From positions 1 through 32,835 of the IMG/VR virus record IMGVR_UViG_3300044638_003506: a DNA stretch of 32,835 nt. One strand, 5' to 3'. Shown here piece by piece: positions 20,228 through 24,943 of the stretch. Position numbers and translations under genes: made by a program. Positions within the stretch are counted from its first letter, which is position 1, and each line of letters starts with the position of its first letter. The stretch is from a virus. Under the pieces are notes generated by a model. The model was not told the DNA's origin, made no database searches, and worked only from the letters and a program-made list of their open reading frames with translations.

Positions 20228-20431
20228 ATGAAAATAGACTACACTTGCCAAAACGAAGAATGCGAACATGAGTTTGAAATTCGCTTCACACCAGCAACTC
20301 TAGACAAGAATATGAGTGGACGCTTTGAGGACGCAGAACAAGGATCGTCAGCAGAAGTATATCCACAGGAATGCGAGGAATGCGGAACTGAAGTGGATCT
20401 TGAGGCGGTGGAATCAGAACTTGAGGATTAG
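20228..20431 (+). CDS. Small zinc-ribbon protein
   Basis: 67 aa. Two cysteine pairs, YTCQNEECEHEFEI and ECEECGTEVDLE, separated by about 35 residues fit a zinc ribbon; the rest is acidic. The second pair has the CxxC spacing and the first CxxxxC. It precedes the methyltransferase by 7 bases, within reach of the same AGGAGG. Possibly a regulator or host-interaction protein. Confidence 0.6.
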   Translation: MKIDYTCQNEECEHEFEIRFTPATLDKNMSGRFEDAEQGSSAEVYPQECEECGTEVDLEAVESELED

Positions 20432-20438
20432 GAGGAAC

Positions 20439-21386
20439 ATGAATGAGCTACACCTTTTTGCAGGAGCAGGGGGAGGAATCCTCGGCGGACACCTTCTCGG
20501 ACATACCACAGTATGTGCTGTTGAGATTGAACCTTATTGCCGACGAGTCTTGCTCCAACGGCAACGAGATGGAATCTTGCCAAAGTTCCCAATATGGGAT
20601 GATGTTACAACATTTGACGGCAACCCGTGGAGAGGAAAAGTCGATGTCGTCTGCGGGGGTTTTCCCTGTCAAGACATCTCAGCAGCAGGAAAAGGAGCCG
20701 GGATCACAGGAGAACGAAGCGGTCTCTGGTCAGAAATGGCCAGAATCATTGGCGAAATACGACCCAAATACGCATTCGTGGAGAACTCACCAATGCTTAC
20801 TCTTCGAGGACTTGACCGAGTGCTTGGCGATCTTTCCGAAATGGGGTATGATGCACGATGGGGAGTTGTGGGAGCTTACCATGTCGGCGCACCTCATAGA
20901 AGAGAACGAATCTGGATTACAGCCAGACGGGATAAATTTCTTTCATACTCCCAACACAACGGGGCTGGATGGGGGCAGCAGCAGCAGGAAAGCATTGAAG
21001 AAAAGACAGGGAATGATATGGCCTACTCCACTCAGTTGTTCTGCAATGGCGGCGACGATAACTCCGGATTCAGTCTGGAACGAGAATCGCTTTCAAAACT
21101 TGGAAACAATTGTAGGACGGAGTATGTGGCCGACTCCATGTGCAAGCGACAACCGAGACAGGGGTCATATTGGTATGCCAGTGATCCAGCGGAGAAAAGA
21201 GAAGGGGAAGCAGATAGGTCTTGGGCAGAGCGTGTCGGACACATCTGGGGCATTGAATCCAGATTGGGTCGAGTGGCTAATGGGGTGGCCGATAGGGTGG
21301 ACAGACTTAAAGCCATTGGAAATGGTCAGGTTCCAATCGTGGCGGCAACAGCATTCAGACTTCTTTCAGAATCATTAACTAAATAA
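20439..21386 (+). CDS. dcm: DNA cytosine-5 methyltransferase
   Basis: 315 aa from ATG 20439, which has AGGAGG 4 bases upstream. C5-MTase motifs in order: LHLFAGAGGG (I, residues 4-13), VEIEPYC (II), WDDV (III), GGFPCQDIS (IV, catalytic Cys77), VENSP (VI, with ENS for ENV), HRRERIWI (VIII, 153-160), and the final RLKAIGNGQVP (X). The region between VIII and X, which should hold target recognition, is about 110 residues. S-adenosylmethionine-dependent methylation at a short site would protect phage DNA from host restriction. No cognate restriction enzyme is seen, so it is an orphan enzyme. A second frame overlaps nearly the whole gene. Confidence 0.9.
   Translation: MNELHLFAGAGGGILGGHLLGHTTVCAVEIEPYCRRVLLQRQRDGILPKFPIWDDVTTFDGNPWRGKVDVVCGGFPCQDISAAGKGAGITGERSGLWSEMARIIGEIRPKYAFVENSPMLTLRGLDRVLGDLSEMGYDARWGVVGAYHVGAPHRRERIWITARRDKFLSYSQHNGAGWGQQQQESIEEKTGNDMAYSTQLFCNGGDDNSGFSLERESLSKLGNNCRTEYVADSMCKRQPRQGSYWYASDPAEKREGEADRSWAERVGHIWGIESRLGRVANGVADRVDRLKAIGNGQVPIVAATAFRLLSESLTK
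20443..21378 (+). CDS. Overprinted frame inside the methyltransferase gene
   Basis: 311 codons in the +1 frame relative to the methyltransferase. Start (20443) is 4 bases after the methyltransferase start, behind the same AGGAGG, and stop is 8 bases before its stop. The product is soluble, Trp-rich and patterned: HSWRTHQCLLFEDLTECLAI, FPKWGMMHDGELWELTM, two WPTP motifs (IWPTPLS and MWPTPCASD), and LNPDWVEWLMGWPIGWTDLK near the end. I recall near-identical phrases as stand-alone hypothetical phage proteins, so this frame is either a genuine second gene or a widely propagated shadow of the conserved methyltransferase. The choice cannot be made by reading alone. Confidence 0.45.
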   Translation: MSYTFLQEQGEESSADTFSDIPQYVLLRLNLIADESCSNGNEMESCQSSQYGMMLQHLTATRGEEKSMSSAGVFPVKTSQQQEKEPGSQENEAVSGQKWPESLAKYDPNTHSWRTHQCLLFEDLTECLAIFPKWGMMHDGELWELTMSAHLIEENESGLQPDGINFFHTPNTTGLDGGSSSRKALKKRQGMIWPTPLSCSAMAATITPDSVWNENRFQNLETIVGRSMWPTPCASDNRDRGHIGMPVIQRRKEKGKQIGLGQSVSDTSGALNPDWVEWLMGWPIGWTDLKPLEMVRFQSWRQQHSDFFQNH

Positions 21387-24000: not shown

Positions 24001-24237
24001 ATGGAAAAGAAATTCTCCAAGACTATCACAAACCCTAAAACTGGCAGGGAGAAGACTGTCCGATATGGGCAGAAGGGGGCGACCATCAAGCCGGGAACAA
24101 GCAAGGGAGATTCCTATTGCGCTCGTTCTGCGGGTCAAATGAAGAAGCACCCAGCGGCGGCAAAAGATCCCAACTCTCCTCTTCGCCTATCACGGGCCAA
24201 GTGGAAGTGTTCTGGAACCAAGTCAAGGCGAGATTGA
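24001..24237 (+). CDS. Small basic protein (YCARSAG...WKCSG family)
   Basis: 78 aa from ATG 24001, one base after the previous stop. KTVRYGQKGATIKPGTSKGD leads into SYCARSAGQMKKHPAAAKDP and SPLRLSRAKWKCSGTKS. The CARSAG...SP..LSR..WKCSG pattern is a recurrent small phage protein, which I would place near DUF6321, with no known activity. Very basic (pI must be high), two Cys that could bind zinc as a dimer; nucleic acid binding is likely. Confidence 0.6.
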   Translation: MEKKFSKTITNPKTGREKTVRYGQKGATIKPGTSKGDSYCARSAGQMKKHPAAAKDPNSPLRLSRAKWKCSGTKSRRD

Positions 24238-24242
24238 GATTT

Positions 24243-24303
24243 TGCGAATAGAGCCAAGGGAGAACCTTGGACGGCGGTTCATGTTCCGTCTGTTGAACAC
24301 GCA
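24243..24303 (+). ncRNA. Predicted structured RNA with H-type pseudoknot
   Basis: Between the basic-protein gene and the terminator the bases can fold completely: closing pair TGCG (24243-24246) with CGCA (24300-24303); hairpin CCAAGG (24254-24259) with CCTTGG (24265-24270); hairpin GACGG (24270-24274) with CCGTC (24286-24290), sharing base 24270; and loop bases GTTCA (24277-24281) with TGAAC (24294-24298), which is an H-type pseudoknot. The intrinsic terminator starts 3 bases later. This could be a small RNA processed from, or ending, the replication-gene transcript, or a switch controlling that terminator. No known RNA family was recognised. Confidence 0.4.
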
Positions 24304-24305
24304 TC

Positions 24306-24337
24306 AAGGGCGAGGAGAAATCCTCGCCCTTTCCTTT
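24306..24337 (+). terminator. Intrinsic terminator with GAAA tetraloop
   Basis: AAGGGCGAGGA (24306-24316), loop GAAA, TCCTCGCCCTT (24321-24331), an 11-bp perfect stem followed by TCCTTTT. It ends the long rightward unit that includes TerL, methyltransferase, exonuclease and helicase. The following 115 bases (to 24452) hold a small palindrome ATGAAA/TTTCAT at 24367-24382 and TTGACT at 24391-24396 without a good -10, so the promoter of the next unit is unresolved. Confidence 0.88.
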
Positions 24338-24452
24338 TAACCGCATAAACACTAGCTCCAGGGCCGATGAAATTTTTTTCATTTTGTGTGTTGACTCATT
24401 CAAAAATTCTGAAAGACTCATACCAAGCGGCACAACCTCCGCTGAACAAAAC

Positions 24453-24728
24453 ATGAACACCATAATGAAAGCCAAGGCAGACGCAGTTGTAGCGCATGAT
24501 GCGCTCTTCAAGGTCAGTATCACCCAAGCCGAACACGCAGGACTGGATGAGATCCGAATCTCCGTTCCCCGTGCGCGAATCATCCTCAACGATTTGATCG
24601 CGTTGAAGAAGGCAGTGGAATCCCCATACCGCAACCTCAAACAGCCAGCCCATTTTGACAGGCTGGACTCCATGTTCTTCCAACAAGCGGAAGCCATCAA
24701 CGAGGCCATGACAAAAATCCTCCAATGA
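24453..24728 (+). CDS. Hypothetical protein
   Basis: 91 aa from ATG 24453 (MNTIMKAKADAVVAHDALFK...); a longer frame from 24384 is open but would begin in the control region. Pattern: beta strands around DEIRISVPRARIILNDLIAL and a long C-terminal helix (FFQQAEAINEAMTKIL). Family not recognised. First gene of the coupled small-gene chain; ATGA overlap with the next. Confidence 0.55.
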   Translation: MNTIMKAKADAVVAHDALFKVSITQAEHAGLDEIRISVPRARIILNDLIALKKAVESPYRNLKQPAHFDRLDSMFFQQAEAINEAMTKILQ

Positions 24729-24943
24729 TCGCCATTGTCAACATTGGAGGGGGAGATGAATCCAATCCCCTTGGAGAAAGAAACTACGAGGTTAGAATCA
24801 ACCACGAAGTCATTACCACTTTCAAGCACAAGCGAAGCGATGGACTTGGAGCTTGCTTACTTGAAGCGTCAAAAGCCGTAGAGCGATCTAAATGGAATGC
24901 AGTAGAAAAGCTTATTCAAAACTTCAACGAAACATCCAAATGA
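24725..24943 (+). CDS. Small hypothetical protein
   Basis: 72 aa. IAIVNIGGG, then NYEVRINHEVITTFKHKRSD and GLGACLLEASKAVERSKW form a small beta-beta-alpha unit that I recognise as a common phage hypothetical (YEVRIN...I..F.H.R.DGL..CL..A). Function unknown. ATGA overlap at both ends. Confidence 0.6.
   Translation: MIAIVNIGGGDESNPLGERNYEVRINHEVITTFKHKRSDGLGACLLEASKAVERSKWNAVEKLIQNFNETSK

Follow-up and report, generated by a model that had tools for sequence, protein, structure and literature searches.

The stretch of DNA analysed here (the window) is a viral sequence of 32,835 nucleotides (IMG/VR record IMGVR_UViG_3300044638_003506, positions 1 to 32,835) in which a C5-cytosine methyltransferase gene in frame 0, here called alpha, shares almost its whole length with an open frame in the +1 register, here called beta (Table 1). 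As the initial annotation had described, frames of 315 and 311 amino acids lie behind one AGGAGG and stop 8 bases apart. The AGGAGG is spaced 3 nt from the alpha ATG and 7 nt from the beta ATG. The two WPTP motifs (beta residues 193 and 229), FPKWGMM and NPDWVEWLMGWPIGWTDLKP were likewise all found in the +1 product. The last of these had been taken as the exact +1 reading of methyltransferase motif X; the overlap with motif X is in fact confined to the first residues (RLKA), and most of NPDWVEWLMGWPIGWTDLKP reads, in +1, the frame-0 stretch ESRLGRVANGVADRVD, which lies just before motif X.

Table 1. Features of the overlapping methyltransferase locus, in positions of the window.
Feature	Position	Strand	Extent or basis
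Shine-Dalgarno AGGAGG, upstream of the alpha and beta starts	20430..20435	+	sequence
alpha, frame 0, C5-cytosine methyltransferase subunit	20439..21386	+	315 codons
alpha motifs I-VIII, residues 1-165	20439..20933	+	conserved block, 110 aligned relatives
beta, +1-frame gene, putative target-recognition and motif IX subunit	20443..21378	+	311 codons
beta start ATG, within alpha codons 2-3 (AAT GAG)	20443..20445	+	codon-2 conservation
alpha catalytic Pro-Cys (GGFPCQ, P76-C77)	20664..20669	+	invariant, 68 aligned alpha proteins
beta conserved middle segment (KYDP..SW.THQCSL..WG.MR.GE.WE)	20725..20937	+	alignment and shuffle test
beta variable region with two WPTP repeats, putative target-recognition domain	20938..21252	+	dN/dS; LPTP repeats in relatives
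beta motif IX equivalent LNPDWVEWLMGWPIGWTDLKP	21253..21315	+	conservation and motif layout in relatives
alpha motif X RLKAIGNGQVP	21303..21335	+	alignments of relatives

Alpha matched PF00145 (2.9e-33, confined to residues 3-176) and phrog_363 (3e-73), and has the catalytic domain, motifs I-VIII and Pro-Cys of a C5-cytosine DNA methyltransferase. It does not have the layout of a single-chain enzyme, with motifs IX and X together, since X lies in alpha and the equivalent of IX in beta; judged by inspection and conservation, motif IX is unrecognisable in alpha, where motifs I-VIII and X are present. Beta carries the WPTP repeats and LNPxWVEWLMGWPxGW, many residues of its motif IX equivalent being nearly invariant in 98 aligned sequences, and its middle segment overlies the DNA of alpha motifs VI-VIII. 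No family in Pfam, NCBIfam or PADLOC was matched by beta. Five PHROG families were, the best being phrog_1008 at 5e-27, and every one of the 98 sequences in alignment A1, taken from 104 candidates, matched phrog_1008; this bears out the statement in the initial annotation that phrases of this kind turn up repeatedly among phage proteins. Beta is treated here as a gene on the basis of this phrog_1008 match together with stop depletion, start conservation and frame-specific constraint.

Directly upstream lies a 67-aa ORF (20228-20431) whose stop overlaps the shared Shine-Dalgarno sequence; it has two cysteine pairs (C-x4-C, C-x2-C) that look zinc-ribbon-like by eye, no match in Pfam and weak PHROG hits. 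Elsewhere in the window, a 383-aa ORF on the minus strand and a 395-aa ORF on the plus strand cover nearly the same stretch (1438-2637), both without a Pfam match and the latter without a PHROG match, and at 24086-24829 there is a 247-aa minus-strand ORF, again without a Pfam match, opposite shorter ORFs only on the plus strand.

Stops and synonymous shuffles were analysed in 164 of 167 loci, reduced to 111 representatives, 47 of them selected by the methyltransferase; the latter form the fairest set, being the viral loci found by methyltransferase alone (80 of 261 kept) that were left after near-copies had been removed. In 45 of these 47 non-redundant loci 90% or more of the +1 frame was open, against 1.02 loci predicted by synonymous shuffling, and across the 47 the frame held 80 stops against 277 expected from synonymous-codon shuffles; in the same loci the +2 frame held 695 stops against 613 expected and the antisense frames 336 against 336, 209 against 220 and 405 against 417. 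In the window the longest +1 run was 311 codons, a length never reached in two runs of 100 shuffles with means of 157 and 159. Scores against a +1 profile were compared with 40 synonymous shuffles each in 31 of the 47 loci, those unlike the training set, and the median was 271 against 128 for the shuffles, with all 40 shuffles exceeded in 31 of 31 loci. By region, all shuffles were beaten in 20 of 31 loci for beta residues 1-94, 30 of 31 for residues 95-165, 27 of 31 for residues 166-265 and 31 of 31 for residues 266-305; constraint on beta is thus uneven along its length, with the first ~94 residues weakly constrained and perhaps a passenger. Amongst 55 control loci encoding C5 methyltransferases, 53 from two genome samples and the others from phages MM1 and 5093, there was no depletion of +1 stops (1053 against 1052 expected). 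Two of these controls (L408 and L411) had a +1 frame open over 95-96% and proved to be split enzymes too, and a 56th control locus (L428) was excluded since it carried a +1 motif IX.

The start codon of beta was assessed from alpha codon 2, where AAT creates the beta ATG. In the 47 methyltransferase-selected representatives this codon was AAT in 35 and AAC in none, against a background AAT:AAC of 116:194, with CGT in two (giving GTG), CGA in five (no start there) and the xEL context absent in five; in 73 genome loci, found via beta, AAT:AAC was 47:1 against a background of 53:189. The near-exclusive use of AAT thus indicates that the beta start is kept. A Shine-Dalgarno-like motif was found at 32 of 62 ATGAATG or GTGAATG starts, the median spacers being 4 nt for alpha and 8 nt for beta (3 and 7 nt in the window), and one ribosome-binding site may therefore serve both starts. 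Judged from the stops, the shuffles and the start codon, the +1 frame is a gene and not a shadow.

Selection on each frame was estimated from 82 pairs drawn from 204 de-duplicated loci, using a simplified in-house method rather than a published program. The overall dNN/dSN of alpha was 0.34 and the dNN/dNS of beta 0.48 (0.44-0.52), the ratio being 1.26 when the +2 frame was taken as the second gene as a control; by this measure beta is under purifying selection. Values for the first 160 overlap codons were 0.17 for alpha and 0.59 for beta, for the overlap past codon 160 and before the last 45 codons, that is between motifs VIII and X, 0.74 (dNN/dSN) for alpha and 0.38 (dNN/dNS) for beta, and for the last 45 overlap codons 0.44 for alpha and 0.37 for beta. 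The two frames therefore alternate, with constraint on alpha over motifs I-VIII, on beta over the variable region and on both at the end. In an alignment of relatives (110 of the 111 representatives) alpha shows little conservation from about residue 165 to residue 268, whilst beta there keeps the WPTP repeats and, also opposite a poorly conserved stretch of alpha, G.LNP.WVEWLMGWP.GWTDLKPLEM. The initial annotation had proposed a near-complete overprinted pair of coding frames, and had named free +1 stops in homologues and an absence of added constraint as observations that would speak against it; both were looked for without refuting the pair, which is well supported by the stop depletion, the shuffles and the dN/dS ratios.

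The +1 product, at first taken for an unrelated unknown protein, is instead most likely the target-recognition and motif IX half of the same methyltransferase. That beta supplies motif IX is indicated by loci in which motif X lies in the +1 ORF, by the motif order of single-chain relatives, by a structural model of one such relative and by two Pseudomonas loci. In loci from a Spirochaetia MAG (L171), Paraburkholderia (L221) and a Kiritimatiellae MAG (L239), alpha ends just past motif VIII and the +1 ORF has LNPxWVEWLMGWP followed by motif X (e.g. RLKAIGNGQVP), and in a viral locus (L148) motif X lies farther along the +1 ORF, behind LNPxWVEWxMGWP. In the tree L275 joins these four as a fifth row with X in the +1 ORF; the five lie scattered and starred branches force at least four changes, the bootstrap being unsettled, the root arbitrary and the branch of L239 long.

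Amongst viral relatives of the mycobacteriophage gp71 protein, motif IX and motifs I-VIII share one ORF in 26 of 30, and an alignment of 22 of the 30 has LPTP repeats in most members, with FPEWMMGWPxGWVT or something very like it behind them and motif X last; the order in the mycobacteriophage single ORF is motifs I-VIII, LPTP repeats, xxAFPEWMMGWP and X, the motif X profile matching nine of the 26 single-ORF relatives of the gp71 type. In a Megaera plasmid enzyme a single ORF holds motifs I-VIII, LNPDWVEWLMGYP and X; 72 of its 80 relatives kept have the split overlapping layout, with three single-chain. For a compact single-chain relative (L272) an AlphaFold2 model built from 19 sequences had a pLDDT of 73.3 and a pTM of 0.73, with residues 73-87 and 160-221 unreliable and block means of 87-93 over the motif segment 231-283; it aligned with M.HhaI at Z 22.8 over 206 residues (2.4 A), the first and last aligned residues being 1 and 283 of 283 in the model and 12 and 318 in the M.HhaI chain. 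In the two Pseudomonas loci L408 and L411, alpha has motifs I-VIII and X and the +1 ORF has LSGSERLxMMGFASxWM, lying in L411 within LSGSERLKMMGFASDWM, a canonical-looking motif IX by eye, and L408 is nearly identical.

The AlphaFold model of beta alone was poor (pLDDT 57.7, pTM 0.30), and two comparisons of the beta sequence with known structures gave nothing significant (no hit in one, and in the other three unrelated hits with E values from 0.069, the best, to 0.36). Short IX-X pieces, compared by sequence with known structures, also gave nothing significant (E 0.72 or worse); of eight such matches, six were to DNA methyltransferases, for the most part under the name DRM2, and a second attempt returned none.

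We consider it improbable that beta, though a real gene, has some other job, such as counter-defence or control of the methyltransferase, with a methyltransferase-like end that is a coincidence or a relic. The middle segment and the first ~94 residues do lack a counterpart in the chains of single-chain methyltransferases, and beta alone has no match to a known structure, but against this alpha has no recognisable motif IX, similar repeats and a similar motif sit between VIII and X in single-chain relatives, motif X follows the motif IX equivalent in four loci, and amongst the genome loci kept (80 of 158 found with the beta profile; other locus sets were kept at 80 of 595 and 80 of 600) alpha overlaps in the expected frame in 80 of 80, with beta never found without alpha. 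A programmed +1 frameshift near motif VIII, fusing alpha motifs I-VIII to the C-terminus of a startless beta, would account for the normal motif order in L171, L221 and L239, but is very unlikely given that the +1 frame is already constrained upstream of motif VIII (the 0.59 of the first 160 overlap codons), that codons 95-165 have no +1 stops against 85 expected, that beta keeps its own ATG and that in the layout of the window the fusion would be without motif X. Scarcely credible is a shadow ORF, kept open by a frame-0 codon usage that avoids +1 stops and with motifs that echo conserved alpha residues, for although the echo is real (the shuffles keep nearly half of the observed profile score), this reading was rejected on the synonymous shuffles, the +2 and antisense frames and the 55 controls without overall stop depletion, and is opposed further by the far greater openness of the +1 frame than shuffling predicts, the difference in ratio between beta and the +2 frame, the kept beta start codon and the strong constraint on beta where alpha is almost neutral.

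The middle segment fits less easily with the assignment of beta to the target-recognition and motif IX half. In the single-chain relatives (L254-L286) this segment of the +1 frame scored above its shuffle null in 16 of 16 non-redundant loci, and +1 stops were clearly depleted only in codons 80-165 (27 against 47 expected); here it may be a relic of a split ancestor or have some other function. In the streptococcal phages MM1 (L381:7571-8053) and 5093 (L382:6212-6640) the middle segment scored 23.9 and 20.1 bits against null maxima of 11.7 and 14.0, and their +1 ORFs, of 161 and 143 residues from stop to stop, have the middle segment followed by a DILEExVDExxFLS stretch and match beta in the middle segment only. 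Scores above the null where frame 0 already has motif IX may point to another origin or role for the segment. In L428, another split locus, the middle segment did not beat its shuffle null.

Motif X in alpha with motif IX and the middle segment in the +1 ORF was found in 229 of 253 loci scanned, a count that is not a frequency since many of the loci were picked via the +1 protein, some contigs occur twice and near-identical copies are included. The exceptions, all left unrepaired although some may be sequencing errors, comprised loci in which frame 0 is stopped or broken ahead of motif X (L058, L063, L080, L187, L201, L206) and others with motif X in the +1 ORF (L148, L171, L221, L239), a single chain (L249, L251), no middle-segment match (L250, L253), rearranged or broken frames (L039, L069, L230), a +1 frame interrupted between the middle segment and IX (L047, L096, L252), no motif X match (L011, L248) and no IX match (L158, L159). 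In L248 (Streptomyces phage Lilbooboo gp32/gp33), LERIGNGVVP is readable in the +1 ORF behind LSPEFAEWLMG. In the Paenibacillus polymyxa plasmid locus L252 (1144-2211) one +1 ORF follows another and both end in a GQLNPxWVECLMGFP motif IX, which suggests a tandem duplication.

The labels of the tree span ten bacterial phyla and one archaeal phylum, many of them MAGs and possibly with prophages. At 1e-5 a search with the +1 protein gave 75 matches among 50,697 phage records and 8 among 72,556 plasmid records, numbers that the alpha echo may inflate. phrog_1008 was matched at 1e-8 in 10 of 199 sampled Pseudomonas genomes, the starting genome included, with an overlapping alpha ORF in 10 of 10, one of them divergent, and in none of 14 control genomes. 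Relatives of the Megaera type, counted over 65 non-redundant loci in split sets filtered for IX in the +1 ORF (class A), had 155 +1 stops in codons 1-80 (182 expected), where the frame is not open, and a single one in codons 80-165 (163 expected); beta here starts inside alpha, so that near-complete co-extension looks like a feature of one clade added to an internal overlap. Taken as a single reading, we think it likely that these loci form a large and old class, spread over phages and about ten bacterial phyla, in which one enzyme is written over two frames of the same DNA, that the clade of the window is almost fully co-extensive, with one ribosome-binding site and starts 4 bases apart, that motif X has switched frames more than once and that many 'complete orphan' C5 methyltransferases are half enzymes with an unannotated partner.

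One of the closest known systems is M.EcoHK31I (Lee, Kam and Shaw 1995). This enzyme has the specificity YGGCCR and requires both of its polypeptides for methylation, and its small gene lies inside the large one in another frame. The locus, a real and conserved overprinted pair as judged by the tests above, is best read as a split enzyme of the M.EcoHK31I kind. As described in PMC3404938, M.EcoHK31I consists of two polypeptides; motifs I-VIII and X are found in the larger and only motif IX in the smaller, and the predicted target-recognition domain lies in the large subunit. The window has the motif layout so described, I-VIII and X in the large chain and IX in a second polypeptide, but differs in that the constraint between motifs VIII and X lies mainly in beta and the repeats lie there too, so that the target-recognition region would belong to beta. 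The two chains of the window also have about the same length, the start of beta coming 4 bases behind that of alpha. In M.AquI, another C5 methyltransferase, the natural break falls after motif VIII and X is in the small subunit (PMC3404938). L171, L221 and L239 share this layout as there described, but with overlapping ORFs, whereas the window, having motif X in alpha, lacks a second subunit with IX and X of that kind.

C5 methyltransferases in apparent total overlap have been noted in streptococcal phages, with a pneumococcal phage and Tn5252 cited likewise (PMC5601072), and MM1, 5093 and Tn5252 resemble the window in that one piece of DNA is reported to yield two C5-methyltransferase-like products, read in different frames. 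In MM1 and 5093, however, frame 0 is a complete single-chain enzyme with canonical motifs IX and X, unlike alpha of the window, in which IX is not recognisable, and the overlaps of these two phages thus differ from that of the window. Both frames are annotated in Paenibacillus phage Diva (gp49/gp50, 'g49 internal gene') and in two phages of Escherichia, K1ind2 and fTaEco01 (in fTaEco01 as 'Mte8-like protein'), and a sub-profile scan of all three gave X in alpha and IX in the +1 ORF; beta starts well inside alpha in all three, unlike in the window, and K1ind2 and fTaEco01 had no middle-segment match. The accessible text of PMC6070908 and PMC5582158 gives no function for the Diva and Escherichia phage +1 ORFs. 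Overlapping C5-methyltransferase ORFs are thus already published; no account of this split overprinted class was found in the literature searched, many subscription papers lying outside that search.

We regard it as very probable, from the sequences and alignments considered here, that the locus encodes one two-subunit C5 methyltransferase whose subunits are overprinted, alpha providing the catalytic motifs I-VIII and motif X, and beta the WPTP-repeat target-recognition region and motif IX. Selection on both frames and the division of the motifs between them can be read from the sequences themselves, and from these we infer translation of beta, formation of a heterodimer, its activity, a target site and a biological role. 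The single Shine-Dalgarno sequence probably loads ribosomes at both starts, 4 bases apart, so that one message would give both chains; alpha and beta would then fold together, and the assembled enzyme should methylate a particular cytosine-containing site. Phage methyltransferases usually serve to protect phage DNA from restriction (PMC5601072), and the enzyme proposed here would probably shield the phage DNA from host restriction in the same way. Since the two chains are probably halves of one enzyme, the reason for their overlap is directly testable.

To our knowledge, near-complete overprinting of two functional chains on the same strand is rare in prokaryotes. The ORF usually annotated at such a locus is, on the motif layout, probably half an enzyme. 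If this is true, C5 methyltransferases annotated as single ORFs, in phages as in bacteria, may depend on a +1 partner that has escaped annotation, and expression of the lone ORF, or prediction of specificity from that ORF, would fail.
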